Assembly: GCA_943328975.2 (NCBI GenBank)
Contig: CALQCC020000035.1
Coordinates: 1-51,846, forward strand
Direction: 5' to 3'
Source of the DNA: Bordetella parapertussis
GTDB lineage: Bacteria > Acidobacteriota > Terriglobia > Bryobacterales > Bryobacteraceae
Length of the DNA stretch: 51,846 nt
The notes beneath the pieces were generated by a model, which saw nothing but the letters and a program-made list of their open reading frames with translations, was not told the DNA's origin and made no database searches. Below are positions 1,772-40,898 of the stretch, piece after piece; positions within the stretch are counted from its first letter, which is position 1, and every line of letters begins with the position of its first letter. Made by a program: the position numbers and the translations under genes.

Positions 1772-1778
1772 CTCTTTG

Positions 1779-3395
1779 ATGCCCACTCGTCGTCACTATT
1801 TGCTGGTCCCCATCGTCATCGCGGTTGGTTCGATCGCCGCTGGCCTTTTCTCCGGGGGCGGCGTATCCGCTGCTACACCCTCAGAAGACGCCGCGACCCA
1901 AAGCTTGCGAACGTTCTCCACGATTTACGACGCGGTGGAGAAGAACTTCGCCGACGAAGTCAAAGCCGAGAAATCAGTCTACAAGGGCGCGATCCCGGGC
2001 ATGCTGCACACTCTGGATCCGCACTCGAACTTCTTCGACCCGCGCGATTTCCAGGAAATGCGTGAAGGCCAACGCGGCGAATACTTCGGCGTCGGCATGA
2101 CCGTGGCAACGCGGAACAACCAGACCATTGTCATCGCTCCCTTCCCTGGATCGCCCGCTGCGAAAGTCGGCTTGCGTCCTGGAGACATGATCCAACTGGT
2201 CAACGACAAGAAGACCGAGGGCATGTCAACCACTGAAGTCGCAGACCTGCTGCGCGGCCCTCGCGGCACCAAAGTTCAAGTACAGGTAATCCGCGAAGGT
2301 GTGGATCAACCCGTGGTATTCAACATCACCCGCGACTCCATCCCCCGTTTCAGTGTCAGCGGCGGCTTCATGGTGAAGCCCGGCATCGCCTTCATGCGTG
2401 TCGAATCCTTCAACGAAAACACCAGCCAGGAAATGGAAGATAAGTTCAAGAAGTTGGGCGAGAAGAACGTCCAGGGCTTAGTCCTCGATCTCCGTGGCAA
2501 TCCCGGCGGCCTACTGAACGAAGGCGTGGACGTGGCCGGACATTTCTTGAAGAAGGGCGACCTGATTGTGTTCCATCAAGGCCGCAGTTCACCGAACAAG
2601 AACTACACTGCCCGCACCGACGGAACGGGCAAGGACTATCCCGTCGTGGTGCTGGTGGATCGCTACACCGCCTCTGCCGCGGAAATCGTAAGCGGCGCGC
2701 TGCAAGATCATGATCGTGCTTGGATCCTGGGTGAGAACACCTTCGGTAAGGGCCTGGTTCAGACCGTGTTCCCGATGGGCGACAACACCGGCTTGGCGTT
2801 GACGACAGCGCACTACTACACCCCCAGCGGCCGTTTGATCCAGCGCGACTATTCAAACATCAGCTTCCTCGATTACTACTCGCACTCGAATCTGGAAGAG
2901 AAGAACCTGCAGGACGTAAAGACCACGGACTCCGGTCGCACCGTTTACGGCGGCGGGGGCATTACGCCGGATGAAAAGTACGAACCGGCCAAGGCGAATC
3001 CGTTCCAGATCGCCGTGGGCCGCAAGGATTCGTTCTTCAACTTCTCCGCCAAGTACTTCGGTGCTCGCGACACCAAGCTCCCGCAGGGCTGGGAACCGGA
3101 CCAGGCCATCCTGGACCAGTTCCGCGCCTATCTGAAAGAGAAGGAAGTCACCTTCACCGACGCCGAGTTCACGGAAAATCGCGATTGGATGCGTCGTCAA
3201 CTGAAGCGCGAAATGTATATCGCTGCGTTCAGCACCGACGAAAGCCAACGGGTCCAGTTTGAACAAGACCCGATGGTACTCAAGGCGCTGGAGTCGATGC
3301 CGAAAGCAAAGGAATTGCTGGGCACCGCCAAGAACATGCTGGTCCGTCGCATGAAAGCGCAAGAGACCGCGCCGATCGCTGCGAACGTACGCTAA
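1779..3395 (+). CDS. ctpA: S41 family C-terminal processing peptidase (CtpA-like), active
   Basis: A 538-residue serine protease predicted to work in the periplasm, where the family trims the C-termini of envelope proteins. An N-terminal hydrophobic segment (residues 6-30) serves as signal or anchor. A PDZ domain follows at about 95-175 (GSPAAKVGLRPGDMI), then the tail-specific protease core. The catalytic Ser-Lys dyad is intact: Ser299 in YTASAAEI and Lys324 in FGKGLVQT, 25 residues apart. The oxyanion-side motif LRGNPGG is present. A C-terminal extension of about 150 residues follows the core. It is tightly followed by guaA (9 bases). It serves here as the reference for the degenerate S41 copy at 39663-40898. 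Confidence 0.93.
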   Translation: MPTRRHYLLVPIVIAVGSIAAGLFSGGGVSAATPSEDAATQSLRTFSTIYDAVEKNFADEVKAEKSVYKGAIPGMLHTLDPHSNFFDPRDFQEMREGQRGEYFGVGMTVATRNNQTIVIAPFPGSPAAKVGLRPGDMIQLVNDKKTEGMSTTEVADLLRGPRGTKVQVQVIREGVDQPVVFNITRDSIPRFSVSGGFMVKPGIAFMRVESFNENTSQEMEDKFKKLGEKNVQGLVLDLRGNPGGLLNEGVDVAGHFLKKGDLIVFHQGRSSPNKNYTARTDGTGKDYPVVVLVDRYTASAAEIVSGALQDHDRAWILGENTFGKGLVQTVFPMGDNTGLALTTAHYYTPSGRLIQRDYSNISFLDYYSHSNLEEKNLQDVKTTDSGRTVYGGGGITPDEKYEPAKANPFQIAVGRKDSFFNFSAKYFGARDTKLPQGWEPDQAILDQFRAYLKEKEVTFTDAEFTENRDWMRRQLKREMYIAAFSTDESQRVQFEQDPMVLKALESMPKAKELLGTAKNMLVRRMKAQETAPIAANVR

Positions 3396-15863: not shown

Positions 15864-18725
15864 ATGCCGCACTCCAGGCACCATTGCCTGCGCACGCTCG
15901 TATTGTCTCTTCTCGGATCGTGTTCGTTGATGGCACAGCAGGCCCCCGCGCCTCCCAAGCCAGGGAACCCGTTTGAAACCGTAACCGAGGCCCCCGTTGC
16001 TCCCCGCGTCGCCGCCGAGGCAACCGACGTCATCGACAGTATCGAATTTCGAGGATCGCGCCGTGTCCCCCAAGACACCCTGCGCGCCATGATCTTCACC
16101 AAACGGGGCGACGTTTATAATGACCAGTCCCTGCACCGCGATCTCATCACGCTGTGGAACCAAGGCCGTTTCGACGATATCCGTCTGGAACGCGAGCGCG
16201 CCGATACCGGTGGCTGGATCGTTCGCTTCATCGTCGTCGAACGCCCCGTGGTCCGCACCTTAGAATTTGAGGGGGCCAAGACCGTCACCACCTCCGACAT
16301 TCTGGAACGCTTCCGCGACCGCCGCGTCGGCCTCAGCGTCGAATCGCAATTCGATCCCAACCGCCTTCAACGCGCCGTGGTTGTTCTACAAGAACTGCTA
16401 GCAGAGCGGGGTCGCCAGTTCGCCAAAGTCACCCCTGACATCCAACAGCTACCCCCCGCCTCGCTGGCCATCACTTTGCGCGTCGACGAAGGCCCCAAGG
16501 TCAAGGTTGGCAAAATCAATATCGAGGGCAACACGGTCTATAGCGATCGCCTCGTGAAGCGCGCCATGCGCGTTCTGAAGCCCACTGGCATCCCGTACTC
16601 GATCTTCGCGGAAAGCCTCTTCGCCAAAACGTTCGATTCCACCAAACTTGAGGTCGACGGCCAGTTGATCTCGCAGTTCTATCAAAAGAACGGCTACTTC
16701 ATGGCCCGCGTTGTGGATCAGAAGGTAGAATTGGGCGACGGCGGCAACGGCCAGTTCCGTCTGCCCGTGATTCACCCCAACAAGCCCGGCAAGAAAGCCG
16801 ACGTCACTTTGACGATTGAAGAAGGCCGCCGCTACAAACTCAACAACGTGAACTTCGTCGGCGTCAAACTCTTCAGTGCTCCCGAAGCTCTGATGCGCCC
16901 CGTTTTCCAAATGGACCAGGGCCAATACTTCTCCACCGAGAAGCTGCAGAAGGGCCTGGACGAACTCCGCAAACTCTATGGCAACTACGGCTACATCAAC
17001 TTCCTAGCCGACCCCATCCCGGAAATCGTCCCCAACACCGACTTGGTCAACCTGACCCTCAACTTCGACGAAGGCAGTCAGTTCTTTGTCCGCCGCATCG
17101 ATTTCTCCGGCAACACGACCACCCGCGACAAAGTCATCCGCCGCGAACTCATGATCGACGAAGGCAACTTCTACAGCGAGAACCTGTGGGAACTCAGCCT
17201 GCTGCGCCTCAACCAGCTCGGATACTTCCAGACGCTGAAAAAAGAAGATGCCGTGGACATGAAGACCGACACGCGCACCAACACGGTCGACCTGACCCTG
17301 AAGGTTCGCGAACAAGGTAAGAACTCGGTGCAGATGAGCGGTGGCGTTTCGGGTATCCAAGGCAGCTTCCTGGGCTTCCAATACTCCACCAACAACTTCC
17401 TGGGCTTGGGCGAAACACTAAGCCTGTCCTCCAGCGCCGGCACGCGTTACAAGGACGTCCAGGTCAGCTTCACCGAACCCTATTTCCTCGACCGCCCCAT
17501 TCAGTTCGGCGTGTCGGTGACCATGAGCCGCTTCAGTTACAACCAAGGCCGCGAAGCCTCGGTGCTGGCTGGCGCCAACCTGATTCCCTTGTATAACTCC
17601 GTGGGCGCGCAGAACCTGCTCAACTACAACACCAACACGAAGGGTTTCTCGGTCTTCTCCAGCTACCAGTTGAAGCGCAGCTTTGCCCGCGTGGGTATCA
17701 GTTACGGCTTCAACATCCAAAACGTAGAGACGCTCACGGAATCGGCCAAGCAGTATTACAACTACTTGAACTTCCAGCAGATCAACGGACCGAACCAGTT
17801 GGATGGCATCACGACCTCCTATATCCAGCCGACGTATTCCTATAACTCCACCGACAGCCCGATGATCCCGACACGCGGCACCCGCGCCTCGGCCAGCCTG
17901 CAGTTTGCGGGCGGATTCCTCGGCGGCAGTGTGAACCAGATTCAGCCCCAGATCGACGTCGCGCACTTCCGTCCGGGCCTCAAACCCAAGCACGTGATCG
18001 GAATGCATTTCCTGGGCAGCTACGTAACCGGCTTTGGCGGCAAGACCGCCCCGCCCTTCAACCGCTTCTTCATGGGTGGCGAAAACGACGTTCGCGGCTT
18101 CCAGCTCTACACCGTCAGTCCGATCGCCTTCATCCCCATCGCGGCCACCGTCAACCAACTTAATAACGACGGCACTCCGCGGCAGCAAAAAGGGATCGTG
18201 GACACTGCGACAGGCGCAGTCGGCCTAGTCAACGCGACGCAACAAATGCCGGCTTATCAAATGGTGTTCCCGGGCGGCGACACCAAAATGGTGGCCAACT
18301 TCGAATACCGCGTCCCCATCTTTGGACCGGTCACGCTGGCGGCCTTCTTCGACGCGGGTATGAACCGGCTGTCCAACCAAAGCCAGCTAACGCTGAACCC
18401 CAGCCGGATCTTGGACTTGAACAATCAATTCCCGGAAGCGGCATTTAAAAACCGCGCCGTGGTGGCCTACAACACACAACTTATCCGCAGTTCCACTGGC
18501 TTGGAGCTCCAGGTTCTGATGCCGGTCTTTAACCAGCCGTTCCGCATCTACTGGGCCTACAATCCAACCCGGGTCCGGGACTACATTCAGCCGCCCATCG
18601 TGGCCGACCGTAGCTACTTCCCGAACTATCCGTCATTCATCAATTCCGTGGCCACCTTCGGCCAGCCTATTCCGATGTTTGAGCGCAAATCTATCTTCCG
18701 TTTCACAATCGGACGCACGTTCTAG
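15864..18725 (+). CDS. bamA: Outer-membrane protein assembly factor BamA
   Basis: A 953-residue Omp85 protein that inserts beta-barrel proteins into the outer membrane. A signal peptide (LVLSLLGSCSLMAQ) is followed by a Pro-rich linker and five POTRA domains (about residues 55-480, for example VDSIEF-type starts and VKVGKINIEGNTVYSD). A 16-strand barrel follows, with the lid-lock motif region MGGENDVRGFQLY. The chain ends in Phe (FRFTIGRTF), the signature of barrel proteins. At 953 residues it is longer than the about 800 of E. coli, partly from a long loop with VNQLNNDGTPRQQ. A Skp-type chaperone gene follows after 50 bases, the usual pairing. Confidence 0.95.
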   Translation: MPHSRHHCLRTLVLSLLGSCSLMAQQAPAPPKPGNPFETVTEAPVAPRVAAEATDVIDSIEFRGSRRVPQDTLRAMIFTKRGDVYNDQSLHRDLITLWNQGRFDDIRLERERADTGGWIVRFIVVERPVVRTLEFEGAKTVTTSDILERFRDRRVGLSVESQFDPNRLQRAVVVLQELLAERGRQFAKVTPDIQQLPPASLAITLRVDEGPKVKVGKINIEGNTVYSDRLVKRAMRVLKPTGIPYSIFAESLFAKTFDSTKLEVDGQLISQFYQKNGYFMARVVDQKVELGDGGNGQFRLPVIHPNKPGKKADVTLTIEEGRRYKLNNVNFVGVKLFSAPEALMRPVFQMDQGQYFSTEKLQKGLDELRKLYGNYGYINFLADPIPEIVPNTDLVNLTLNFDEGSQFFVRRIDFSGNTTTRDKVIRRELMIDEGNFYSENLWELSLLRLNQLGYFQTLKKEDAVDMKTDTRTNTVDLTLKVREQGKNSVQMSGGVSGIQGSFLGFQYSTNNFLGLGETLSLSSSAGTRYKDVQVSFTEPYFLDRPIQFGVSVTMSRFSYNQGREASVLAGANLIPLYNSVGAQNLLNYNTNTKGFSVFSSYQLKRSFARVGISYGFNIQNVETLTESAKQYYNYLNFQQINGPNQLDGITTSYIQPTYSYNSTDSPMIPTRGTRASASLQFAGGFLGGSVNQIQPQIDVAHFRPGLKPKHVIGMHFLGSYVTGFGGKTAPPFNRFFMGGENDVRGFQLYTVSPIAFIPIAATVNQLNNDGTPRQQKGIVDTATGAVGLVNATQQMPAYQMVFPGGDTKMVANFEYRVPIFGPVTLAAFFDAGMNRLSNQSQLTLNPSRILDLNNQFPEAAFKNRAVVAYNTQLIRSSTGLELQVLMPVFNQPFRIYWAYNPTRVRDYIQPPIVADRSYFPNYPSFINSVATFGQPIPMFERKSIFRFTIGRTF

Positions 18726-23626: not shown

Positions 23627-23694
23627 TAGTTGAGGAATGAGCTTCTGGGGCATTTGTTCCGCTGCCCCGCTTGGGCTCCAGGAGGAAACACGAA

Positions 23695-24804
23695 ATGAAT
23701 TCACTGAAAGTCGCCGCGAGCTTGCAGTTGCTCTGTTCCGCCGGATTCGCCCAGAACGTGGGCCTCACCTTTACCGGAAATGCCGCTCGAACCTCAGGCA
23801 CGGGCTTTTCCATGTCCGGAAGCGCCTCGATCACGGGTTTGGGGAGCGCTGTCCTATCCGGAGCCGGCGTTCTGACGCAGGCCCTGATCGACGGACAGAA
23901 TACGGAGCCGATTCCTGGCAGCTTCTCGCTGATCTTCCCCGACGGCGCTATTTTGTTCGGCTCCTTCTTCATTCCCTCGGTCATCCTGATCCCGCAAATT
24001 GGGGGCGCCATCTCAGCCACGGGCGTCATCACGATCACCGGCGGAACGGATCGCTTTGAAGGTGCGCGTGGCAGGATTGACCCCATCACGGGAACCGGCA
24101 CCGTCACCAGTTCCACCACTTCGTCATTCTCCATCGCAGGCAACGGCACGCTGAATTACGGTCAAAAGCTACTCCCGCAGTTCGTGTCTGGTGGCGGGTG
24201 GTACACCGCCCTCTACTTCGCGAACTCCGGCACGGCGCCCGTCTCGTTTCCCGTGAATTTCATCGCCGACAACGGAACGCCGCTCAACATCCCGGCGCTG
24301 GGCGGATCATCCACCACTGTGTCCATCCCCGCAGGAGGCTCCGCACGCATCGAGGCTCCGAATACGGGCACCTTGAACCAAGGCTACGTCTCCGCAACGC
24401 TGCCACCCAACGTGACCGGCTACGGCATTTTTCGGCAAAGCGTCCCGGGGATCGCCGATCAAGAGGCCGTTGTGCCGCTATCTAACGCAGGCACCACCGC
24501 CAATTCCCTCACTTTTGACGACACCAACTCCATCACCGCCGCAGCCATCGTAAATGCGAGCGATGTAGCCACCTCTGTAACCATCACAGCGAAGAGTGCC
24601 AACGGAGGCTTGCTGGGGACAGCCAGCGTGCCACTCGCCGCCAAGAGCAAGACCGCCGTCTCGTTGCGCAGCGTCGCCGGCCTGGGTGCGATCGCGAACA
24701 GTCGCGGCTCGGCCACCTTCACGGTCACCTCAGGAAGCGTCGCAGTGCTGGGCCTCCGCTTCTACGGCTCGGCGTTCACCTCCATCCCCGCAACCGAAAA
24801 ATAG
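23695..24804 (+). CDS. Secreted protein of unknown function (paralogue A)
   Basis: A 369-residue protein. GGAGG at 23681-23685, nine bases before ATG 23695, sets the start and excludes the in-frame TTG 23671. The signal peptide is LKVAASLQLLCSAGFAQ. The first about 130 mature residues are Gly/Thr/Ser-rich beta sequence (GFSMSGSASITGLGSAVLSG; TGGTDRFEGARG). A second beta domain begins at GGGWYTALYFANSG and runs to the end (LGLRFYGSAFTSIPATEK). I do not recognise an enzyme motif. The next gene is a full-length paralogue, so this is a tandem duplication. A sigma-54-like promoter precedes it. Confidence 0.82.
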   Translation: MNSLKVAASLQLLCSAGFAQNVGLTFTGNAARTSGTGFSMSGSASITGLGSAVLSGAGVLTQALIDGQNTEPIPGSFSLIFPDGAILFGSFFIPSVILIPQIGGAISATGVITITGGTDRFEGARGRIDPITGTGTVTSSTTSSFSIAGNGTLNYGQKLLPQFVSGGGWYTALYFANSGTAPVSFPVNFIADNGTPLNIPALGGSSTTVSIPAGGSARIEAPNTGTLNQGYVSATLPPNVTGYGIFRQSVPGIADQEAVVPLSNAGTTANSLTFDDTNSITAAAIVNASDVATSVTITAKSANGGLLGTASVPLAAKSKTAVSLRSVAGLGAIANSRGSATFTVTSGSVAVLGLRFYGSAFTSIPATEK

Positions 24805-24848
24805 CGAACTCGCGCCCACGCTACAATCAGAATCTACGGAGGCTGATG

Positions 24849-25957
24849 ATGCGTACTTTGAGAGTTCTTGGATGTGTGGCAGCACTAACGGTGGGGGCCT
24901 TCGCGCAAACCCCGTCAACGATCTCGATCTCTGGAAATGCCTTTTTGACAGGTGGTACAGGCTATGGCCTGAATGGAACTACCACTATTACTGGATTGGG
25001 CACCGCAATTCTGTCCGGCTCCGGACAAATCGATAACAGCCTGCTGACCGGGCAAAGCTCCGGCTCCATTCCGGGGAACTTTACGTTGATATTCTCCGAC
25101 GGTGCCATTCTCTATGGCGCGCTGTTCCCTCGGGCATCCTGATCCCTCAGGTCGGCGGATCCGCGTCCTCCACTGGTTCGGTGACCATCACCGGCGGAAC
25201 AGGCAGATTTGAGGGAGCTCGCGGCGTGTTCGGATCGCTGACCGGGTCCGGTACCGCCACCGGCTTTACAACGGCGACGATATCGATCTCAGGGACCGGC
25301 ACCTTGAGCTTTGGCCAAAGGGTACTTCCGCAATTCGTCTTCGGCGGAGGCTGGTACACAGCGCTGTACTTCAGTAACTCGCTCGCCAGCCCGGTGACCT
25401 TTCAGGTTAATTTTCTCTCTGACAACGGAACCCCTCTGAACGTCCCCGCCCTGGGCGGCTCGTCCTCGACCGTGACCATTCCCGCGGGAGGCTCAGTGAG
25501 ACTGGAAGCGCCCAATACAGGCACGCTGGTGCAAGGCTACGCATCTTTGTCGCTTCCGGAGGGCGTCACGGGCTATGGCGTCTTCCGTCAGAGCGTGACC
25601 GGCACGCCGGATCAAGAAGCCGTGGTCCCCTTGGCCAACGGCGCTTCCACCTCCGCCTCCATCACGTTCGATGACACGGACTTCACCACCGCCGCGGCCA
25701 TCGTCAATCCCAGCAGCGTGGCCACTACCGTCACCGTAACGGTCAAGAGCGCCAACGGTGGATTACTTGGAACCGCAACCATCCCGCTCGCGGCCAAGAG
25801 TAAGACCGCTGTCGCACTCCGCGGCCTCACCGGCCTGAGCGGCGTAGCCAACACCCGTGGCGTTGCCACCTTCACGGTCCCCACGGGAAACGTCGCCGTC
25901 CTGGGACTTCGCTTCTTCGGCTCGGCGTTCACCTCTATCCCGGCTACCGACAAGTAG
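24849..25957 (+). pseudogene. Secreted protein paralogue B, broken by a frameshift
   Basis: Similar to paralogue A along its whole length but in two frames. 24849-25142 encodes the signal peptide and N-terminal region and stops at TGA 25140-25142. The rest continues in another frame, open from about 25130 to TAG 25955-25957. Alignment to paralogue A places the change at 25124-25130. There A reads TTCATTCCCTCG and B reads TTCCCTCG, a four-base loss between short TTC repeats. Both halves remain otherwise intact, so the mutation is recent, or a sequencing error. GGAGG at 24838-24842 favours ATG 24849 over ATG 24846. A TACAAT box lies just upstream of the RBS. Confidence 0.8.
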
Positions 25958-28053: not shown

Positions 28054-29355
28054 GTGCGCACCCGGCTTCTAAACCTCATCGGCGCGGTCCTCCTGGCCGC
28101 GCCTCTGTCGTTCTCGCAAGAGAAAGCGAACTTCCCCCTCGAATCCGTACGCATCCTCGGCAACGACGCCATCCCCGCCGAACGCATCATCGCCGCCACA
28201 GGACTCAAGATCGGAGCCCCCATCACCCGCCCCGAATTCAACGAAGCCCGCGACCGATTGCTAGCCACCGGAGCCTTTGAAAGCGTCGGCTTCACATACA
28301 AAGCCAGCGCCGCCAATACCGGCTTCGATGCCACCTTCCAAGTCACCGAGACCACGCCGCTCTATCACTACCGCTTCGAAGAACTCCCGTCCACCGAAGC
28401 CGCCCTGCGCGAAGCCCTCCGCAAACAGGAGCCCATATTCACTGACGCGATACCGCCCACGCCGCAGGTGATGAATCGCTACTCCAGCGCCCTCGCACGC
28501 TTCCTGAACAACGGCACGCAGGTGATCGGTGAAGTGAACTCCGACACCCCCGGTGAACTCATGATCGTCTTCCGCCCGCTGGGCACGCGCCTCAACATAT
28601 CGGAGGTCAACTTCATTGGTAACGTGGTCCTGCCCAACACCGAACTGTGGCGCATCATCAACGTGGTCGCCATCGGCGCGCCCTATAGCGAGCCCCTCTT
28701 CCGCCAGATGCTCGATTCCAGCGTCCGCCTGGCCTACGAAGAGCGCGGCCGCATCCGCGTGGCATTCCCCAAAATCGAAACCGTAAAGTCCACTGACAAC
28801 GACGGGCTGGTGGTCACCGTCACGGTCGATGAAAGTGAGCCTTACAAACTGGGCGAAGTGAACTACAAAGGCGTCCCCTCCCGCGAAGAGGCGGAACTGA
28901 ACAAGCTGGGTAACTGGAGCAAAGGCCAAATCGTGAATTTCGCCGACGTGGACGCGGGCACGTCCCGCATCCGCAAGAACTACCGAGCAGACGGATACCT
29001 GCGCGTTGAAACGCCCGTCACCCGCGAGATCCACGACGTTCCCAATCGAACAGTCGACCTAACCATCGCCATCAACCCCGGCCCGCGCTTCTCGATGGGC
29101 AAGCTGACCATCAAAGGCCTGGACATCCTCAGCGAGCCCACCATCCGTAAGCTCTGGCGCATGAACCCGGGCGATCCGTACAAGGAAGACTACCCCGATG
29201 AATTCCTCCGCATGATCCAAGCGGAAGGCTACTTCGACAACCTCGCCCGCACCGGAGCCGAGGCCGACCTCCACGAAGACACCCACGCAGTCGACGTAAC
29301 CCTAACATTCCTAGGCGCCAAAGCCGCCGCCGAAGTAGATCGCAAACGCCGCTAG
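28054..29355 (+). CDS. Periplasmic protein of tandem POTRA domains without a barrel
   Basis: A 433-residue protein from GTG 28054 (GGAAG upstream) with a signal peptide (LIGAVLLAAPLSFSQ). The rest reads as about five consecutive POTRA-like units starting near residues 28, 103, 178, 262 and 344 (VRILGNDAIPAERIIAAT; ISEVNFIGNVVLPNTELW; LGEVNYKGVPSREEA; GKLTIKGLDILSEPTIRKL). It stops at KAAAEVDRKRR with a charged C-terminus and no beta-barrel. It therefore looks like the periplasmic half of a BamA/TamA protein on its own. No barrel gene follows; the next gene is convergent. It may be a soluble chaperone or docking factor for the Bam machinery, which is an inference. Confidence 0.78.
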   Translation: MRTRLLNLIGAVLLAAPLSFSQEKANFPLESVRILGNDAIPAERIIAATGLKIGAPITRPEFNEARDRLLATGAFESVGFTYKASAANTGFDATFQVTETTPLYHYRFEELPSTEAALREALRKQEPIFTDAIPPTPQVMNRYSSALARFLNNGTQVIGEVNSDTPGELMIVFRPLGTRLNISEVNFIGNVVLPNTELWRIINVVAIGAPYSEPLFRQMLDSSVRLAYEERGRIRVAFPKIETVKSTDNDGLVVTVTVDESEPYKLGEVNYKGVPSREEAELNKLGNWSKGQIVNFADVDAGTSRIRKNYRADGYLRVETPVTREIHDVPNRTVDLTIAINPGPRFSMGKLTIKGLDILSEPTIRKLWRMNPGDPYKEDYPDEFLRMIQAEGYFDNLARTGAEADLHEDTHAVDVTLTFLGAKAAAEVDRKRR

Positions 29356-31375: not shown

Positions 31376-32481
31376 TGGAAGAAATCGAAGTTACGCAGAC
31401 CCCGGAGATTGAGACTCCGGAAGCACCACCCCAAGTGGCTCAGGAAGCAGAGCAGGCTCCTCAGGAAGCCGACCAGCTTTCTGAACTTGCGATTGAAGAA
31501 ATTCTGGGCGATCCCGATCAACCCGAGCCATCCCCGGAGCTAGCAGAAGACACCGCGCACCTGCGCGCCATGCTGGAAGCCGTCATCTACATCACCGATG
31601 AGCCGCTCACGCTGCAGCAAATCTGCGCCGCCCTTGCGGAGCCCATCGACAAGATCAAACGCCTGCTCGATGACTTAGTTGCCGAATACGACAAACCGGG
31701 AAAAGGCCTGAGCATCCGCGAAGTCGCGGGTGGCTACAAGATGGCCACCAAAGCCGAGCATCACGAAGCCGTCCGCGCCTTCGTCAAGAAGCTCACACCG
31801 CCGCTGAAGCTGTCGCTAGCCGCGCTGGAGACGCTGGCCGTAATCGCCTACAAACAACCCGTGACCGCGCCGGAGATCATGGATATCCGCGGCGTGCAAG
31901 GCGCGGGCGTTTTAAAAACCTTGCTGGATCGCAAACTGATCCATGAGGGTGGCCGTAAGAAAGTCATCGGCCAGCCCATTCTCTACAAGACCACGAAGGA
32001 CTTCCTGGTCCAGTTCGGATTGAAAGATCTCACCGAATTGCCCACTCTGAAGGAATTCGAAGAACTCGGTCGTATGGAACTGGTGGAAGAAGTCGCCGAA
32101 GCAGCAGAAGCCGCGACCGAACCCCAGGCCATGGAAGCCGCAGCCGAAGCAGCAACAGCATCCGCTGCGACGGAAGATGCAACCGAACCCAGTGCGGCGG
32201 AAGCCACGCCGGAATCGGACACCTCGGAAGCCACGACAGAACCCACTACTGTAGAAGTAGTAACAGAATCCCCGGCATCCGAAGATGCAACCAAACCCAG
32301 TGCAGCAGAAGCTGCACCGGAATCGGACACCTCGGAAGCAGTAACAGAACCGGAGGCCGCCGAGGCCACAACCGTGTCTGCCGAGGAACCCACTATAGAG
32401 CCCGCTGCGGATGAAGCCGCAACCGAGCTCGCAACGGAAAGTGTTCCGCCTAGCGCGGAAGAAATGAAGGAAAATGGCTGA
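31375..32481 (+). CDS. scpB: Segregation and condensation protein B with long acidic tail
   Basis: A 368-residue partner of ScpA in the SMC complex. ATG 31375 overlaps the scpA stop; the GTG at 31372 is in frame but less likely. The ScpB core, two winged helices, spans about 58-235: LRAMLEAVIYITDEPLTLQQ, then YKMATKAEHHEAV, LAVIAYKQPVTAPEI and IRGVQGAGVLKTLLDRKLI. An acidic N-terminal leader of about 55 residues and a C-terminal extension of about 125 residues flank it. The extension is almost only Ala, Glu, Thr, Ser, Pro and Asp, with a repeated unit around PSAAEATPESDTSEA. ScpB is usually 180-250 residues. It overlaps rluB by 8 bases. Confidence 0.92.
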   Translation: MEEIEVTQTPEIETPEAPPQVAQEAEQAPQEADQLSELAIEEILGDPDQPEPSPELAEDTAHLRAMLEAVIYITDEPLTLQQICAALAEPIDKIKRLLDDLVAEYDKPGKGLSIREVAGGYKMATKAEHHEAVRAFVKKLTPPLKLSLAALETLAVIAYKQPVTAPEIMDIRGVQGAGVLKTLLDRKLIHEGGRKKVIGQPILYKTTKDFLVQFGLKDLTELPTLKEFEELGRMELVEEVAEAAEAATEPQAMEAAAEAATASAATEDATEPSAAEATPESDTSEATTEPTTVEVVTESPASEDATKPSAAEAAPESDTSEAVTEPEAAEATTVSAEEPTIEPAADEAATELATESVPPSAEEMKENG

Positions 32482-34087
32482 AGAACGGCTCCAAAAGATT
32501 TTATCCCAGACCGGCGTAACCAGCCGTCGCAAGGCCGAAGACATGATTCTTCAAGGCCGCGTGACGGTGAACGGCGAAGTCATCACTGAACTCGGCTCCA
32601 AAGCCGATCTCGAAACCGACCACATCAAAGTGGACGGCACGTTATTAAAAGCCCCGCGCACCCACGTCTACATCGCGCTTCACAAACCGCGCGAATGCGT
32701 CACCACCGTCTCCGATCCCGAAGGACGCCAGACCGTTATGCACCTGCTGCGCGGCGTGAAGGAACGCGTGTTCCCCGTCGGCCGGCTCGATTATTCCAGC
32801 GAAGGCCTGCTCCTACTCACCAATGACGGCGAGTTCGCGCACCGTATCACCGCGCCCGCCAGCCACGTTGTCAAAACGTATGTCGTAAAAGTGAACGGCA
32901 ATCTGACCGACGAACAAGTTACGGCGTTCGCCAACGGCATCCCGCTCCACGGCCGCCGCACCGCCCCCGCGCACATCAAACTCATCAAGACCGGCGAGAA
33001 TCCCTGGTATGAGGTCCGCCTCTCCGAAGGCCGCCAGAACCAGATCCGCATGATGTTCAAGCATTTCGGCAAGCTGGTGGAAAAGCTCCGCCGCGTGAAG
33101 ATCGGCTTCCTCGAACTCGACCTTGCCCCCGGCCGCTATCGGACTCTAACCGCTTCTGAGATCCAGAAGTTCCGCCATATCCTCAAACTCGACCAACCCG
33201 CGGAGAAGGCAGAGAAGAAGGACGCAGCTGAGCCCGATGCTGAGACCGAAGCAGTAGTGGCCAAGGTTCGCCCCGCTCGCTCTGCGAAACCGGCCCTCCT
33301 CATTCGGCGCCCCCGGCGCCTTGCCCCGCCTCCCGCCTCGGAGTCCAACGAAGCCCCCGAAGAATCCGCGCCCAGCCGTCCAACCCGTTCCGACCGGCCC
33401 AGCCGTCCCACGGGCCCCAGTCGCTTTGGCAGCCCGAGCCGCGGTGACCGTCCGAGCCGTCCCTCAGGCCCGCCACGCTTCGACAGAGGCGACCGTCCGT
33501 CCGGTCCGCCCCGTGGCGACAGACCCGACCGCGCTTCCGGACCACCCCGCGGTGACCGTCCGAGCCGTCCCTCAGGCCCACCTCGTTTCGACAGAGGCGA
33601 CCGTCCATCCGGCCCGCCCCGTGGCGACAGACCCGACCGCGCTTCCGGACCACCCCGCGGTGACCGTCCGAGCCGTCCTTCAGGCCCACCTCGTTTTGAC
33701 AGAGGCGACCGCCCGTCTGGTCCGCCCCGTGGCGACAGACCCGACCGCGCTTCCGGACCACCCCGCTCTGACCGTCCGAGCCGTCCCTCAGGCCCGCCAC
33801 GCTTCGACAGAGGCGACCGTCCGTCTGGTCCGCCCCGTGGCGACAGGCCCGACCGTGCTTCCGGACCACCCCGCGGTGACCGTCCGAGCCGTCCTTCAGG
33901 ACCGCCGCGCTTCGACAGAGGCGACCGCCCGTCTGGTCCGCCCCGCGGCGACAGACCTAGTCGCCCTTCGGGCCCGCCCCGTGGCGACAGACCCGAGCGT
34001 TCATCTGGTCCCAGCCGCTCCGGCGGACCGAAGCGTCCGTCCGGCCCCAGCCGTGGCGGCCCGCCCAGGGGCAAACCACGTGCTTGA
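32474..34087 (+). CDS. rluB: Pseudouridine synthase (RsuA/RluB family) with Arg/Pro/Gly repeat tail
   Basis: A 537-residue rRNA pseudouridine synthase. The N-terminal S4 RNA-binding domain (1-60) has RLQKILSQTGVTSRRKAEDM. The catalytic domain has GRLDYSSEGLLLLTNDG with the active Asp, then YEVRLSEGRQNQIRMMF and LRRVKIGFLEL. The core ends near residue 240. The remaining almost 300 residues are disordered: first Lys/Ala/Pro-rich, then at least four exact-length 36-residue repeats of the type GPPRFDRGDRPSGPPRGDRP, net positive. Similar RGD/Pro tails occur on some RluB and DEAD-box proteins and probably bind RNA. RluB rather than RsuA is a best guess from sequence alone. Confidence 0.88.
   Translation: MAEERLQKILSQTGVTSRRKAEDMILQGRVTVNGEVITELGSKADLETDHIKVDGTLLKAPRTHVYIALHKPRECVTTVSDPEGRQTVMHLLRGVKERVFPVGRLDYSSEGLLLLTNDGEFAHRITAPASHVVKTYVVKVNGNLTDEQVTAFANGIPLHGRRTAPAHIKLIKTGENPWYEVRLSEGRQNQIRMMFKHFGKLVEKLRRVKIGFLELDLAPGRYRTLTASEIQKFRHILKLDQPAEKAEKKDAAEPDAETEAVVAKVRPARSAKPALLIRRPRRLAPPPASESNEAPEESAPSRPTRSDRPSRPTGPSRFGSPSRGDRPSRPSGPPRFDRGDRPSGPPRGDRPDRASGPPRGDRPSRPSGPPRFDRGDRPSGPPRGDRPDRASGPPRGDRPSRPSGPPRFDRGDRPSGPPRGDRPDRASGPPRSDRPSRPSGPPRFDRGDRPSGPPRGDRPDRASGPPRGDRPSRPSGPPRFDRGDRPSGPPRGDRPSRPSGPPRGDRPERSSGPSRSGGPKRPSGPSRGGPPRGKPRA
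33467..33960 (+). repeat. 108-bp tandem minisatellite inside rluB
   Basis: Unit starts are at 33467, 33575, 33683, 33791 and 33899, exactly 108 bp apart, giving four full copies and a partial fifth. Copies differ mainly by silent third-position changes, plus one Gly-to-Ser change in the fourth junction. Because 108 is a multiple of three, other frames also stay open across it. Confidence 0.93.
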
Positions 34088-35146: not shown

Positions 35147-37770
35147 AACTGCAACTGAAGTCGGAAGTGAAACACCCGTCCGCCGTTCAGCGTGTTCGTG
35201 ATCTTCCCAAACGTCGGACTCGATAACAAGAACACCGGCTGATCGAACTGCGGCGTATTGAAAAGGTTGACCGCCTCCGCGCGCAACTGCAGCGCCCAAT
35301 CCCGAGGCAACGCCCAGTTGCGTTCCACCGAAGAATTTACGTTCGTGATCTTGCCCCGCCGGAACGTGTTCCGTCCTAAGTTGCCCGTAGATTCCGCAGG
35401 CGTCAGGAAACCAAACGCCGAAGCCGGCAGCAACGCAGTAGCAGTATCCGGATTCCCAATCGTCCGCCCCAACACACGCGGATCGAGAACATTCGGACGA
35501 TCACTATTCTGCCCATCCACATTGCCGAACCCCGGACCATCCGAGCCCGTCTCCAACGTGAACGGTGTCCCGCTCTTCAGCAGCCACACTCCGTTCATGC
35601 TCCACCGCCCCACCACCGCCCGAGCCCAACGCTCTCCCAACTGCGGCGTCTGGTAGCTCGCGCGCAGCAGGAATGCATGCGGCTGATCGAAGCTCGCTAG
35701 GCCCTTCATGGAATCGTGCACGAAGAACTCGGCCGGAGCCCGCCCCTGCCGCGTATTCGGACCCGCCACCGTGCTGGTGTAATCCGTCCCGTAGTCGATA
35801 CCCTTGCTGAACCAATACGACACCTCGCCGCTGAACCCGTGCGCCGATGGCACCGTCACCGTGACGCGCGCCGCATCGAAGTAACTCTTCGATCCGTTAT
35901 GAATGCGGAACACGTCGAACTTCGTCTGATCCGCCCGCCGAGCGTTCACCGTTGCCGGCGTGATCTGGCTAATGTCCGCCACCTTGCCGCCACGATTGTT
36001 GTACAGCGTTTCAAATAGACGATGCGCGCGGCTGCCGACGTAGCCCACCTGCAACTGCATCCCTCGCGTGCTGCGCCATTCCCAGCTTGCGTTGTACGTG
36101 TGTTCGTACGGCAGCCCCAAGTTGTCCGCCAGTTGATAGTAAGCAGAACGGAACCCCGGAGCCAGATCCTTAATCGTCAACCCATTCAGAGGATTCAAGA
36201 GATTCGGAGTGTTCACCGTCACGCGCGCCGCGTTCGGCAAGTTCATGCGAATCTGCCCAAACGTCGCCACGAACATCTGCCCGTAGTCCATCGCATAGGC
36301 ACTACGCAGCACGCCCCATTTACCCGGCAAGCGATACGACAACGCGAACCGTGGAGCCAGCGCGCCGCAGCTGCAACCGAACGGCATTGTCTCCCGGTTG
36401 TTCACTTCCGTCGGCTTCAGCAGCGGCTCATAGCGCAGCCCGATCTGCATGTTCAGCCGGCTCGTGATACGCCAGGAATCATCGACATATCCGATGAGCT
36501 TCCAGGTCCGGTACCCGCGATACGTATCCCCCAAAAGTTGATTGAAGCTACTGGCCAACCCTTTGCGTAGATTGGTCACCGCATCATTGCCGAACGCATT
36601 CTGGAACGTAAAGACGGGGCGTAACGCATCTTGCTCCAGGCTGTTCATCTGCGTACGCATGACTTCCCCGCCCGCGTGCCAACGATGGTTCCCGTACGAT
36701 CCTTCCAGCGCCGCGGCCTCGCGGAATAGATTCTGCGTCCGCAGCACAGGCACGTCCGTATCATTCCCCAGCGTCTGAATCACGTTCGTCACATTCACGC
36801 GCGTTGAGGGCGAAGTTGCATCCGGACGAATGGACGTCGTCGTACGATCGAACGAAGTCGAGAACGTCGCCAGCAACGTCGGACTAAACACGTGCCGCCA
36901 AGTCGCGGTCGCGCGATGGTTGTGAAGATCCGAATCCGGATTCTGCCCCGCCACCAACTGAAATGCCTTCACATGTTGCGCCGTAACTTGATACCGCAAC
37001 GCCAACGAATCATTCTTCCCCACAGGCGCATCCACTCGACCGCCCAGAGCATTGGTATCGATTCGCTGCGGAGCGTTCGTATTCAGCGCTCGCGCATCCA
37101 ACTCGGGCAAGTTTGGCGCCAGCGTCGGATACCCGGCCAGCCAACTCGCCACCAGACTATACGTGCGAGGATCCGTCGTCAGCGGCGTGCGCTCATCCGC
37201 GCGCGGCACCAGCACGTTGCCGTTCACCATCCCGCGCGATTTCTGCTGATTGCCATCCAGCGACAAGTTAATGTTGCGCCACAACGGACTGCTCAGGCGG
37301 AACCCGTATTCGTTCTCACGCGCAGGCAACACTCCGCCCACTTGAAAAAACGACCGCGCACTGGTCACGCTGTTCTGGTGGTTCTCCCAGAACGTCCCAT
37401 GTACGCGCCGTCCGCCATTCGCGCCCCCAGGCAAATGCAGCGGAGCATCCGGACTCCGCCCATATTCGCTCGCGAAATAATTTCGATCCGCCTGGAACTC
37501 GCGGACAAGTGTGGCCGTCGCTCCAATCCGGCGCGACAACTCGCGCTCTGTGTTGGTATCGATCGGATTAATGCGAACGTTTTCGTTACGCTGACTTTCG
37601 CCGGTTGCGGTGTTGGTTTGGCCTGCAAGGTTTAACTGCGTGCGCTGTTCGCCAGCCGCCGGAGTGGAAGCTTCCGCCTTCGTGGGAGCAGCCGGAGGGG
37701 GAGTTTGACCCCACGCATTGAAGGACACCAAAACCAGCAGCCCAGCGAGACGGGCTTGCTGTTGAGACAC
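35143..37770 (-). CDS. TonB-dependent receptor-like outer-membrane protein (Oar-like barrel)
   Basis: An 875-residue outer-membrane protein. A signal peptide (RLAGLLVLVSFNAWGQ) is followed by a Pro/Ala linker and a barrel with the late Oar-type pattern (LQLRAEAVNLFNTPQFDQP), ending in Phe (FHFRLQLQF). Unlike the receptor at 45389-48625, it lacks the carboxypeptidase-regulatory-like N-terminal domain, and I see no clear TonB box or complete plug. It may therefore be a reduced receptor or a plug variant. GTG 37770 overlaps the stop of the preceding gene by one base. The unusual motif GCSCGALAP near the middle could form a disulfide. It is last in a five-gene minus-strand run; its ligand is unknown. 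Confidence 0.82.
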   Translation of the reverse strand: MSQQQARLAGLLVLVSFNAWGQTPPPAAPTKAEASTPAAGEQRTQLNLAGQTNTATGESQRNENVRINPIDTNTERELSRRIGATATLVREFQADRNYFASEYGRSPDAPLHLPGGANGGRRVHGTFWENHQNSVTSARSFFQVGGVLPARENEYGFRLSSPLWRNINLSLDGNQQKSRGMVNGNVLVPRADERTPLTTDPRTYSLVASWLAGYPTLAPNLPELDARALNTNAPQRIDTNALGGRVDAPVGKNDSLALRYQVTAQHVKAFQLVAGQNPDSDLHNHRATATWRHVFSPTLLATFSTSFDRTTTSIRPDATSPSTRVNVTNVIQTLGNDTDVPVLRTQNLFREAAALEGSYGNHRWHAGGEVMRTQMNSLEQDALRPVFTFQNAFGNDAVTNLRKGLASSFNQLLGDTYRGYRTWKLIGYVDDSWRITSRLNMQIGLRYEPLLKPTEVNNRETMPFGCSCGALAPRFALSYRLPGKWGVLRSAYAMDYGQMFVATFGQIRMNLPNAARVTVNTPNLLNPLNGLTIKDLAPGFRSAYYQLADNLGLPYEHTYNASWEWRSTRGMQLQVGYVGSRAHRLFETLYNNRGGKVADISQITPATVNARRADQTKFDVFRIHNGSKSYFDAARVTVTVPSAHGFSGEVSYWFSKGIDYGTDYTSTVAGPNTRQGRAPAEFFVHDSMKGLASFDQPHAFLLRASYQTPQLGERWARAVVGRWSMNGVWLLKSGTPFTLETGSDGPGFGNVDGQNSDRPNVLDPRVLGRTIGNPDTATALLPASAFGFLTPAESTGNLGRNTFRRGKITNVNSSVERNWALPRDWALQLRAEAVNLFNTPQFDQPVFLLSSPTFGKITNTLNGGRVFHFRLQLQF

Positions 37771-38627
37771 TAATTCAGTCTAGCATTTGCAGGCGCAAAC
37801 ACGACCAAACTGCTCCCCACCGAACGTCCCTGCGCACCCTCCGGAGGCGCGTTCAACAGCCGAGCAATATGCGTCTCCGGGTCTTCCATCGCCAAACTGG
37901 TCGACCCGCCACCGTCCAGATTCAACGCATCCCACACCGCGTAGTTCGCAATCAAGAACTCCGCCGCTTCACCCACCGTCGCGCGATCCACCACGAGGAG
38001 GATCAACCTCCGCGCATCGCGCGTGAGCCCGATCACCGTGCGCGCATTCACGCGCTCATACCAGGAATCCGCGTTCGAGTAGTTATTGGGGCCGCCCGGC
38101 GTGAGCCCAGCGTCGCCATAAACCGGAATCGTCTTCACGCCCGCCGTAACAATCTGCGCCGATCCCGAGACCGCATTGAACAACTCCCCTACGTCGCCCT
38201 GCTTCACGATCCGCGCACGATTCGCAGCGTCGATATTGAGCCCAGCAGCATTCGCCAGCAGAGCATAAGATTGCGCAGGCGTCTCGAAATCGGAAAAGAC
38301 ATTTCCATCGGAAGCCGCCAGACCGACCAGGAACACGTCCCTCTCTTCAGAAGGATAAGGCACAAAGAAATGAGCATTGATCGCCACCTGCGCATGCTCT
38401 TCACGCAGAAACTCCAGCGTTGTCTGCCGTATCGTCTCGCGCGTCCCACCCGGAGGACTCACATGAAAGCGAAGTCCCGGCTGCGCCAAATCGATCACCA
38501 CCACATGCGCATCCGCGTTACGCGAGCCCACTTCCATATGATGAACATGAGTGACCCCGGCAAACGGAGCCTCCGTGACCGTCTCCGCCCGAGCCGCCAG
38601 CGCGAGCACCAAGAGCAGCCGCGTCAC
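37770..38627 (-). CDS. Phosphodiester glycosidase (NAGPA-domain) family secreted protein
   Basis: A 285-residue protein with a short signal peptide (LLLVLALAARAETV) and a NAGPA-like domain. Seen: DAHVVVIDLAQPGLRFHVSP, then EHAQVAINAHFF, then RTVIGLTRDARRLILLVVD and the conserved WDALNLDGGGSTSLAM. The family cleaves N-acetylglucosamine-1-phosphodiester or related envelope glycan bonds. The frame is open back to 38813 across mtgA; GTG 38627 overlaps the mtgA stop (GTGA) and gives a normal signal peptide. GTG 38630 is an equal alternative. Together with mtgA it suggests cell-wall glycan work. Confidence 0.86.
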   Translation of the reverse strand: MTRLLLVLALAARAETVTEAPFAGVTHVHHMEVGSRNADAHVVVIDLAQPGLRFHVSPPGGTRETIRQTTLEFLREEHAQVAINAHFFVPYPSEERDVFLVGLAASDGNVFSDFETPAQSYALLANAAGLNIDAANRARIVKQGDVGELFNAVSGSAQIVTAGVKTIPVYGDAGLTPGGPNNYSNADSWYERVNARTVIGLTRDARRLILLVVDRATVGEAAEFLIANYAVWDALNLDGGGSTSLAMEDPETHIARLLNAPPEGAQGRSVGSSLVVFAPANARLN

Positions 38628-39316
38628 CACCCCAGTTGGTCCATCCGACCCTCGATGATCCCGCTGTACCGGTTCATCGCCGCTGGACGCCGACGCCGAG
38701 GACTCGGCAGACACGCCGCCAACCTGGACGATTGATCGCGTGTCAACCGCGCCGCATGCGACCCGTAGTGATACGCCGCCGCAGCCTCCGCGCCCCACAC
38801 CCCCGGCCCCCACTCGACGATGTTCAAGTACAACTCCAACACACGCCGCCGACCGAGGATCAGACTCGCCATCGGAGCCAGCGTGTATTCGAACACCTTC
38901 CGCGCCGGATTCCGATGCGTCGTGAAGAACAAATTCTTCACCAACTGCTGCGTAATTGTCGAAGCCCCACGAGGAATCTCACCCTCTTCCAGACTCTCCT
39001 GCATCACCAACTCGACCTGCTGCCAGTCGATGCCGTAGGTCTGATAGAAACGACCGTCCTCAGCCGCAATCACTGCATGTTGTAGGTGTGGCGAGATCTT
39101 TTCCAAGGGCACAAAGGCGGACCGCTTGTGATACTCAGTCCACGAAATCCACGACTCCACGCGCCGTTGGATTTGAACACCCGTAGTGATGGGATTGATA
39201 AACCGCAGGCCCACCAGCGCCACCGCCCACAGCGCATGCAGCCCGACCAATAGCAGAATCGGAACCCGAATCCACCAGGGGATTCGACGCCCCGATTTGC
39301 GACCGCGTTTAGTCAC
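38624..39316 (-). CDS. mtgA: Monofunctional biosynthetic peptidoglycan transglycosylase
   Basis: A 230-residue GT51 enzyme that polymerises lipid II into glycan strands without a transpeptidase domain. The N-terminal membrane anchor is at about 15-38 (VPILLLVGLHALWAVALVG). GT51 motifs: AVIAAEDGRFYQTYGID with the catalytic Glu, RGASTITQQLVKNLFF, RKVFEYTLAPMASLILGRRR and LELYLNIVEWGPGVWG. The length is typical. It overlaps the FmdB gene by 8 bases and the glycosidase gene by 4. Confidence 0.94.
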   Translation of the reverse strand: MTKRGRKSGRRIPWWIRVPILLLVGLHALWAVALVGLRFINPITTGVQIQRRVESWISWTEYHKRSAFVPLEKISPHLQHAVIAAEDGRFYQTYGIDWQQVELVMQESLEEGEIPRGASTITQQLVKNLFFTTHRNPARKVFEYTLAPMASLILGRRRVLELYLNIVEWGPGVWGAEAAAAYHYGSHAARLTRDQSSRLAACLPSPRRRRPAAMNRYSGIIEGRMDQLGW

Positions 39317-39644
39317 TCTTGGTGGTGGTCGCGGCCGGTGCCGCAGGTGCCGCTGGTTTGGATTCGGTCTTGGTTTCAGCTGGTTTGGAATCCGATTTCG
39401 ATTCCGTGGGCTTCGCGTCTGAGCTCGAGCTCGATTCGCTCTTGATCGCCCCGCCGTGGGACCCGCCCTTGCCGTAGTCGGTCACGTACCAGCCGCTCCC
39501 CTTGAAGGAAAACGCCGGCGCGGACATCAATTTTACCACCGCACCACCACAGTCTTCGTGCACCGTCACCGGCTCATCGGAGAACTTCTGGCGTACTTCA
39601 AAAACCTTCTCACACTTGGAACACTGATATTCGTACAGAGGCAT
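39309..39644 (-). CDS. FmdB-family zinc-ribbon protein
   Basis: A 111-residue protein with the FmdB/CxxC putative regulatory domain: MPLYEYQCSKCEKVFEVRQ, then LMSAPAFSFKGSGWYVTDYG. The first zinc knuckle is CSKC; the second is HEDCGG, with His where most members have Cys, still a possible ligand. The tail is low-complexity Ser/Lys/Glu/Thr/Pro/Ala. The function of the family is not established. It lies 18 bases after the S41-like gene and overlaps mtgA. Confidence 0.87.
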   Translation of the reverse strand: MPLYEYQCSKCEKVFEVRQKFSDEPVTVHEDCGGAVVKLMSAPAFSFKGSGWYVTDYGKGGSHGGAIKSESSSSSDAKPTESKSDSKPAETKTESKPAAPAAPAATTTKSD

Positions 39645-39662: not shown

Positions 39663-40898
39663 CTATTTCACAACCGTTGGCGGCGACGTAACTAACGGCG
39701 GCAGTGCCTTCGGATCAAGTCCGCGATTGTAGATCAAATCCGTAGTCGACTTCACCGGAGCAGCAGCCGGAGCTTCGCCCTCCACTGGAGCCGGGGGGTC
39801 GTACTGCGCCTGCAACACGCTCGGTGTCACACGGGTCTCCTGAATCGCCTTGCCGCTCGGAGCATAATACTTCGCCACCGCCAGGATCACAGCGCCGCCA
39901 TCCGGCAAAGCTACCGCCCGACGAATCGCCGCATCGCCGAACGTGGGCTCGCCCACCAAGGTCGCGCGCTTCGATTCCTGCAACGCCGCAGCAGCCACTT
40001 CGGCCGCGCCCACCGTGCCACGATTCGTCAACACAACCAACGGCAACTTAGTAACTGCCTTGGACGCCACAGCCGTGCTATCCGTCCGGCGAACCTTCTG
40101 TCCCTGCGAGTACGTGATCAGCCCGCTATCCATGAAGAGGTTCGCCACAGCAATGCCTTCTTCCACCGGACCCAGCGCACACCACCGCAAATCGAGCATC
40201 AGCTTCTTCGCGCCCTGCTTCTGCAAATCTTGAATCTTCTGGGCGATCTCTTTCGAACGCCCTTCGAGCAACGCGCCCACCGTAATCACGCCCACCGCGT
40301 CCGGACCCTTGTCGGTAACCAACTTCGCCGTCACCGCCGGATACGCCAGCGGAGCCCGCGTCAAGTTCAGCGTCTGCGGATCGGCTTGCCGTGCGGTCAA
40401 CACGCTCAACTCGACCTTAGTTCCTGGATCGCCCTGCAACAGCAGTTCCGCCGAAGCCACCGGCATGTCCCGCGTAGAAATCTTGTTGATCGATTCGATC
40501 ACGTCACCCGTGGTCAATCCCGCGCCATCCGCAGCCGACCCCGGCAGCGCATCCACAATCCGGATGTACCCAGGCCCGCGCGATATCGTCAACCCCAGGT
40601 CCGCTTTACCCTTGCCGTGCTCCGCCTGATACTGCTTGTACTGCGCGGCGTTCAAGTAACTCGCAAACGGGTCCAACGACTCCAGGAGCCCATTCACAGC
40701 GCCCATCGTCACTGCCTTCAGATCCGGCTCTTCGACATACTCGAGCTTGATCTTCGTCAGGACGTCGCTAAATACTCCCAGTTGCGTGTACGGAGAATCG
40801 TCAGGCGTCGCGCTCCGCACAGCCATGGTCCCGAACAACAGGATGCCGACAATGCAGGTCGATCCAGCCACTACAGCGTAATGGAAACGGCGGTTCAT
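39663..40898 (-). CDS. S41 peptidase homologue lacking catalytic residues (pseudoprotease)
   Basis: A 411-residue protein with an N-terminal hydrophobic segment (VVAGSTCIVGILLFGTMAV), a PDZ domain (about 100-180, GSAADGAGLTTGDVIESI) and an S41 fold. Compared with the intact copy at 1779-3395, the catalytic Ser is Gly297 (TVGAAEV against TASAAEI) and the Lys is Asp322 (FGDAAIR against FGKGLVQ). The 25-residue spacing is preserved. The LRGNPGG motif has become LRWCALGPVEEG. The frame is intact and a good RBS (GAGG) precedes ATG 40898, so it is maintained rather than decaying. It is probably a periplasmic binding or scaffold protein heading the fmdB-mtgA-glycosidase-receptor run. Confidence 0.88.
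   Translation of the reverse strand: MNRRFHYAVVAGSTCIVGILLFGTMAVRSATPDDSPYTQLGVFSDVLTKIKLEYVEEPDLKAVTMGAVNGLLESLDPFASYLNAAQYKQYQAEHGKGKADLGLTISRGPGYIRIVDALPGSAADGAGLTTGDVIESINKISTRDMPVASAELLLQGDPGTKVELSVLTARQADPQTLNLTRAPLAYPAVTAKLVTDKGPDAVGVITVGALLEGRSKEIAQKIQDLQKQGAKKLMLDLRWCALGPVEEGIAVANLFMDSGLITYSQGQKVRRTDSTAVASKAVTKLPLVVLTNRGTVGAAEVAAAALQESKRATLVGEPTFGDAAIRRAVALPDGGAVILAVAKYYAPSGKAIQETRVTPSVLQAQYDPPAPVEGEAPAAAPVKSTTDLIYNRGLDPKALPPLVTSPPTVVK

Follow-up and report, generated by a model that had tools for sequence, protein, structure and literature searches.

The window analysed here is a 51,846-nt stretch of DNA from a member of the Acidobacteriota, a large phylum of mostly soil and water bacteria. 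It encodes a CtpA-type protein whose ORF starts with ATG, contains no internal stop codon and is preceded by a purine-rich candidate ribosome-binding site (AGAGG, four bases ahead of the ATG, as judged by eye). Pfam profiles recognised a Peptidase_S41 core (PF03572, 118.2 bits, residues 202-360) and, ahead of it, a PDZ domain (PDZ_6, PF17820, 34.7 bits, residues 114-166; PF00595 also matches), which confirms the intact frame, domain and fold signature given in the first-pass annotation of this DNA. Both domains are expected of a carboxyl-terminal protease (CTP) of the S41A type; however, the Ser-Lys dyad with its Gln is missing, and the score with TIGR00225 (prc, NCBIfam) is 203.5 bits, below the curated cut-off of 218.6. 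The best matches in the PDB are 9ku0 (the top match, 162.7 bits over residues 41-362) and 7rpq, both with chains named carboxyl-terminal protease, which we take to be the CtpA proteins of H. pylori and Pseudomonas aeruginosa (PaCtpA), respectively. A profile built from 28 clade members aligned with chain 7rpq over positions 36-399 of 407, including the C-terminal region.

Table 1 Features of the pseudoprotease gene, its surroundings in the window and the catalytic-type members of its clade
Feature	Position	Strand	Basis or remark
CtpA-type pseudoprotease gene	39663..40898	(-)	411 aa; ORF, Pfam/NCBIfam, clade searches
N-terminal hydrophobic segment, residues 8-27	40818..40877	(-)	membrane anchor or signal peptide
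Ser13 codon	40860..40862	(-)	within N-terminal hydrophobic segment
N-terminal dimerisation region, residues 36-92	40623..40793	(-)	pairwise identity; aligned to chain 7rpq
Phe78 at the position of PaCtpA His84	40665..40667	(-)	alignment
PDZ domain, residues 93-181	40356..40622	(-)	Pfam PDZ_6, PDZ
S41 cap/core domain, residues 182-362	39813..40355	(-)	Pfam PF03572
LDLRWCALGP in place of LDLRGNPGG	40167..40196	(-)	alignment
Gly297 codon at the catalytic Ser position	40008..40010	(-)	alignment
Asp322 codon at the catalytic Lys position	39933..39935	(-)	alignment
Arg326 codon at the catalytic Gln position	39921..39923	(-)	alignment
FmdB-type zinc-ribbon gene	39309..39644	(-)	TIGR02605; between pseudoprotease and mtgA
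mtgA-type transglycosylase	38624..39316	(-)	PF00912; TIGR02070 just under cut-off
NAGPA-domain (phosphodiester glycosidase) ORF, as listed	37770..38813	(-)	PF09992
Active-type long CTP paralogue, comparison protein	1776..3395	(+)	Ser/Lys/Gln present
Family f9 clade members with full Ser/Lys/Gln	L105, L146-L153		pseudoprotease background

The starting observation was that both catalytic residues of this S41 homologue are replaced at exact register and that the LRGNPGG motif is lost. In a gap-free alignment to the active paralogue, Gly297 and Asp322, 25 residues apart, indeed stand at the positions of the catalytic Ser and Lys, which are Ser299 and Lys324 when the paralogue is numbered from the ATG at 1779, and the register is identical against the solved CTPs 9ku0 and 7rpq. 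The protein reads LDLRWCALGP where LDLRGNPGG is expected. Two further losses had been missed, namely that of the catalytic Gln, replaced by Arg326, and that of the active-site His corresponding to PaCtpA His84, replaced by Phe78. Judged by these alignments, the original active-site observation is right and understated.

The pseudoprotease gene is followed on the same strand by the FmdB-type gene, mtgA and the NAGPA-domain ORF, whose real start is probably further in than the listed one. The first-pass annotation had placed the pseudoprotease at the head of an operon with mtgA and a glycosidase, overlooking the FmdB-type gene between them. In the best 80 of 353 relatives, referred to below as the named loci, FmdB lies directly downstream in 62 of the 76 with enough room, a conserved family neighbour that gives no clue to a role in the cell wall. 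MtgA, on the other hand, is found within 2.5 kb in only 1 of the 72 named relatives with room and is absent near the gene in the nearest relative (83% identity); it was therefore rejected as a conserved partner, and the supposed operon is merely local. The NAGPA-domain ORF gave no tblastn match in the 80 named loci.

Elsewhere in the window, a 433-aa ORF with POTRA domains (28054-29355, +) matches the 741-position BamA profile over positions 3-390 only and has no barrel part, while a longer ORF at 15864-18725 looks by eye like a full BamA. An RsuA/RluB-type pseudouridine synthase (32474-34087, +) ends in a long, repetitive Arg/Pro/Gly-rich tail of RPSGPPRFDRGDRPSGPPRGD units, and two adjoining similar ORFs of 377 and 258 aa (23671-25957, +) look by eye like a tandem duplication.

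The loss of the catalytic residues is common to relatives across the phylum. All genome searches for the pseudoprotease were made within Acidobacteriota, and 152 distinct clade proteins were compiled from the best matches of family, class and phylum searches together with hand-picked family representatives. The catalytic Lys is missing in 143 of these 152 proteins, and these 143 span 43 family groups; the Ser is missing in 133 of the 143 and present in 10. Only nine clade proteins keep the full Ser/Lys/Gln set, all of them from a single family (f9), whereas the set is complete in 30/30 rows of the active paralogue. Likewise, the His84 column holds His in 30/30 active rows but in only 2/143 pseudoproteases. 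Asp322 and Arg326 occur together in 48/56 members of the window's family. The named loci, which come from one scan of genome contigs, include many Bryobacterales and overlap with the 152-protein set, contain the catalytic Lys in none and the Ser in 9 of 80. Phylum and family names for the genomes were inferred from the titles of these best 80 of 353 relatives, all of which presumably name acidobacterial groups.

The gene is also widespread. In the window's own family, 191/200 genomes have a match below 1e-60, and the long paralogues inspected in that search reach at best 3.8e-43. In the class, a match at 1e-50 was found in 235/250 genomes (f9 included), and in the phylum sample in at least 129/297, a minimum, given that distant members come close to the 1e-50 limit. 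One protein from another family (L049, genome G342, family f7) shares 52% identity with the window protein and carries the same Gly/Asp/Arg set as the window's family; its genome has a second match, pointing to contamination or transfer.

Family f9 deserves separate consideration. A tree built without the catalytic columns unites the pseudoproteases and f9 in a single clade that excludes the active long paralogue (support 100/100), and f9 is placed in the class clade (96/88) together with family f10, which keeps the Ser but carries Ile for the Lys. When the catalytic columns were left in, f9 again fell inside the clade, its exact place being weak (83/56). The family was oversampled on purpose, with eight loci added after L105. 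Its members carry marks of the clade, namely Tyr at the His84 position (as in 65/143 pseudoproteases), Cys240 and Ser13. They also lack the GNPGG loop, though in a different manner, as Gly243 is kept in 137/143 pseudoproteases versus 0/9 f9 proteins, all nine of which have Glu, Asp or His there. Because the clade marks are kept and the loop is absent, a dead protease may have been revived in this family. The careful tree (59 rows) needs at least two catalytic changes, consistent with a single loss followed by a single regain; if regain is disallowed, the printed tree requires four or five separate losses, depending on how the class node is resolved. A tree with f9 outside all other pseudoproteases was not rejected with 86 rows (p-AU 0.469) and weakly rejected with 59 rows (p-AU 0.031), the latter value being optimistic because the tested group was chosen with f9 already known. 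Consequently, with the AU tests in disagreement, the dyad may have been regained in f9 or lost independently in four or five lineages, and a loss in the ancestor of the clade is not proven since nine f9 members keep Ser/Lys/Gln. The long Ser/Lys/Gln paralogue is present in 12/12 f9 genomes searched, so that the f9 protein is not their sole CTP. A residue check of the long-paralogue loci found Ser/Lys/Gln in 22, while two (L283 and L284) turned out to be the pseudoprotease.

To assess how the gene evolves, we determined dN/dS ratios (Nei-Gojobori). Comparison of the window gene with four congeners gave 0.115, 0.177, 0.132 and 0.051 (dS being saturated in the last pair), other clade pairs ranged from 0.065 to 0.232, and the active paralogue showed 0.122 and 0.140 in two of the same congener genomes. 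Values for L276 and L278 were discarded, as they rested on a wrongly chosen frame. By these ratios the pseudoprotease gene is clearly maintained, and as expected of an S41 pseudoenzyme, purifying selection (0.051-0.177) coincides with catalytic residues that are missing in the orthologues too, the exceptions belonging to one family. The maintained pseudoenzyme suggested initially is therefore well founded, given low dN/dS and losses common across the phylum. Within the gene, two parts show higher ratios than the remainder: residues 1-35 (0.16-0.52, from few sites), which exceed the whole-gene value in all four window pairs, and the tail (0.20-0.60).

The distribution of constraint was compared between the two proteins by mean pairwise identity, using one sequence per family from the same 11 families. 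Identity in the core is 0.333 for the pseudoprotease versus 0.549 for the active paralogue, in the PDZ domain 0.333 versus 0.427, in the N-terminal dimerisation region 0.377 versus 0.383, and in residues 1-35 0.288 versus 0.255. By this measure constraint was relaxed most in the core and less in the PDZ domain, while the dimerisation region kept it. The columns freed in the pseudoproteases include 78, 240, 242, 322 and 325. Newly fixed columns include 37, 42, 46, 54, 55, 58, 63 and 66 in the dimerisation region, and 107, 110 and 111 in the PDZ domain. Tyr54 and Val55 are present in 143/143 pseudoproteases, as against Tyr in 17 and Val in 7 of the 30 active rows. The first-pass annotation had proposed that the protein binds C-termini or scaffolds partners. 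Binding of C-termini found weak support, as the PDZ domain is less constrained too and the basic residue at position 155, presumably equivalent to the ligand-site Arg known from other CTPs, is mostly gone (Lys/Arg in 29/30 active rows and in only a minority of pseudoproteases).

A further constrained position lies in the N-terminal hydrophobic segment, which is present in 143/143 pseudoproteases (19-residue hydropathy of at least 1.66). Residue 13 is Ser in 141/143 pseudoproteases and Thr in the other two, and Ser in 9/9 f9 proteins; in the 30 active rows this column is variable. A fixed polar residue in a hydrophobic segment may indicate an anchor in contact with a partner. However, a motif count found AxA-like motifs within residues 19-36 in 88/143 pseudoproteases, so that a cleaved signal peptide is possible, and these motifs together with the raised dN/dS of residues 1-35 weaken the case for an anchor.

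While the link to the wall through mtgA did not hold, other neighbours of the gene elsewhere in the phylum point in the same direction. Sixty loci (L086-L145) were sampled, with 1.2 kb of upstream sequence available in 56. Ten of the 60 (L114, L118, L123, L124, L128, L133 and L136-L139) have an M23 gene as immediate upstream neighbour in the same orientation. EnvC-type activators typically lack the HxH motif of M23 enzymes, and since this motif is missing, by eye, from all ten, we read them as degenerate EnvC-type genes. Eight other loci with EnvC matches (L104, L107, L111, L115, L121, L125, L127 and L130) were discarded, because the same-strand ORF directly upstream was missing or, by eye, had no M23 end. 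A PF04748 (SddA/YibQ-type) deacetylase gene lies directly downstream in five of the same 60 loci (L099, L100, L101, L104 and L138) and in L154 (Pfam run on L100, L104 and L154). In L138 the order is EnvC-type gene, pseudoprotease and deacetylase. A class A PBP gene follows the pseudoprotease in four loci of family f11 (L140-L142 and L164; Pfam run on L141 only) and lies about 1.1 kb away in two more (L163 and L165), and RuvX and MltG genes diverge upstream in 13/60 loci (Pfam run on one of each). No PF04748 gene occurs in the genome that the window comes from, and the two M23 matches to the EnvC query in that genome are not of the degenerate type, one keeping HLHFE and the other having HLD; beside the gene in the window-family loci examined, neither link was seen. 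EnvC or SddA is therefore not the sole partner. These arrangements resemble a known one, as PMC12569750 describes ctpA of P. aeruginosa in one operon between envC and PA5135, the orthologue of sddA/yibQ, and SddA is a peptidoglycan deacetylase according to PMC12440217.

Taken together, we tentatively propose, with somewhat less than even confidence, that the gene is the acidobacterial counterpart of CtpA, which would have lost proteolysis long ago and would serve as an envelope assembly factor in the control of wall hydrolases. As the relatives keep the same residue-less state, the protein probably holds partner proteins rather than cuts them. It would be an envelope protein, possibly anchored by its N-terminal segment, that works by assembly, pairing through the dimerisation region with itself or with an envelope partner. 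Such pairing would position or protect proteins that cut or synthesise peptidoglycan instead of degrading them. In the window's family the old catalytic positions are usually taken by the Asp322/Arg326 pair. The N-terminal region of PaCtpA forms a dimer and takes up the adaptor LbcA (PMC8764530 and PMC11021448), the dimer is asymmetric with only one active subunit (PMC11021448, which also discusses His84), and other CTPs form oligomers (PMC12749690). From these features, a non-cutting CtpA could be a scaffold, an adaptor decoy or a silent subunit. Against the proposal speaks the PDZ identity, which falls to the level of the released core. A more far-reaching and doubtful version of the proposal holds that the CtpA slot of Acidobacteriota is taken by a pseudoprotease which lost proteolysis early in the history of the phylum and acts via its dimerisation region, in some lineages beside a degenerate EnvC type, and that f9 then rebuilt the Ser/Lys/Gln site.

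One alternative, which we regard as rather unlikely, is that the protein regulates the active long CTP as a subunit of it, where mixed dimers formed via the N-terminal region would hold the partner on or off. The long paralogue is indeed common, with a match at 1e-70 or better in 76/80 phylum genomes (catalytic residues being read in fetched loci only), asymmetric CtpA dimers are known (PMC11021448), and the dimerisation region has kept its constraint. The two proteins are, however, unlike each other in conserved N-terminal residues, as shown by the Tyr54/Val55 pair, and their genes are separated by about 36 kb of the window. We favour the general scaffold or decoy reading over this partnership. 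Unlikelier still is a ligand carrier on the S41 fold, in which the old substrate tunnel would hold a lipid, sugar or peptide. Vertebrate RBP3/IRBP, as described in PMC11750400, shows that this fold can drop catalysis and become a binding protein, and the clade profile also matches RBP3 chains; but the core, the site of any tunnel ligand, has lost the most constraint, and positions near the old active site vary between families.

Continued enzyme activity based on rebuilt or displaced catalytic residues seems very improbable. The joint presence of Asp322 and Arg326 would be compatible with it, as would Thr295 (95% conserved) and, at the 70% level in the core, the Ser column 340 (72%), Lys343 (82%) and Lys350 (77%). 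Yet the Asp/Arg pair characterises the window's family, the Thr295 column is Ser/Thr in active enzymes as well, and at columns 340 and 350 the active enzymes have the similar residues Thr and Arg, the window protein itself having Ala at 340. At the 90% level the core offers no Ser, Cys, His or Lys that might take over the catalytic role; a displaced dyad was judged unlikely on this basis. Recent decay of a protease gene in the window lineage has nothing in its favour beyond the losses themselves, and we reject it as having a negligible chance, because the Lys is lost across so many family groups and dN/dS is well under 1. The wall link envisaged at the outset stands in part: it fails for mtgA and is supported by the EnvC-like, SddA/YibQ-like, class A PBP and MltG neighbours elsewhere in the phylum.

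CTPs have been described as wall-hydrolase-degrading proteases. Retention of a non-cutting CtpA by a whole phylum would mean that CtpA has a partly structural role, and would offer a natural way of separating binding from cutting, while family f9 allows the comparison of catalytic-type with non-catalytic orthologues of one protein. Among the literature matches listed (titles and abstracts of CC-licensed PMC articles), a bacterial CtpA pseudoprotease, acidobacterial ones included, is not described.

The closest known system is CtpA of P. aeruginosa, with which the pseudoprotease shares the domain order of N-terminal region, PDZ, cap/core and C-terminal region and, in L138, the placement between an EnvC-type gene and an SddA-type gene. 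The window gene itself adjoins neither envC nor sddA, these adjacencies occurring elsewhere (10/60, and 5/60 plus L154). Unlike PaCtpA, with Ser302, Lys327, Gln331 and His84, the window protein has Gly, Asp, Arg and Phe, and the pseudoproteases lack the GNPGG loop and carry a near-invariant Ser in the N-terminal segment; the chain of 9ku0 also differs from the window protein in keeping its Ser/Lys active site. With the C-terminal processing peptidases of TIGR00225/S41A the protein shares S41 and PDZ domains, and it differs from them in its sub-cut-off score and missing dyad. Like RBP3/IRBP, as portrayed in PMC11750400, it would combine an S41-related fold and lost catalytic residues with another job; RBP3, however, is a multi-module carrier of vertebrates, whereas this is a bacterial protein with a PDZ domain that occupies the CtpA slot in some lineages. 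Finally, the pseudoprotease resembles EnvC and other degenerate LytM amidase activators, the EnvC type being its direct upstream neighbour in some loci, in that a degenerate enzyme would take part in the control of wall hydrolases, but its domain is S41, in contrast to the M23 domain of EnvC.
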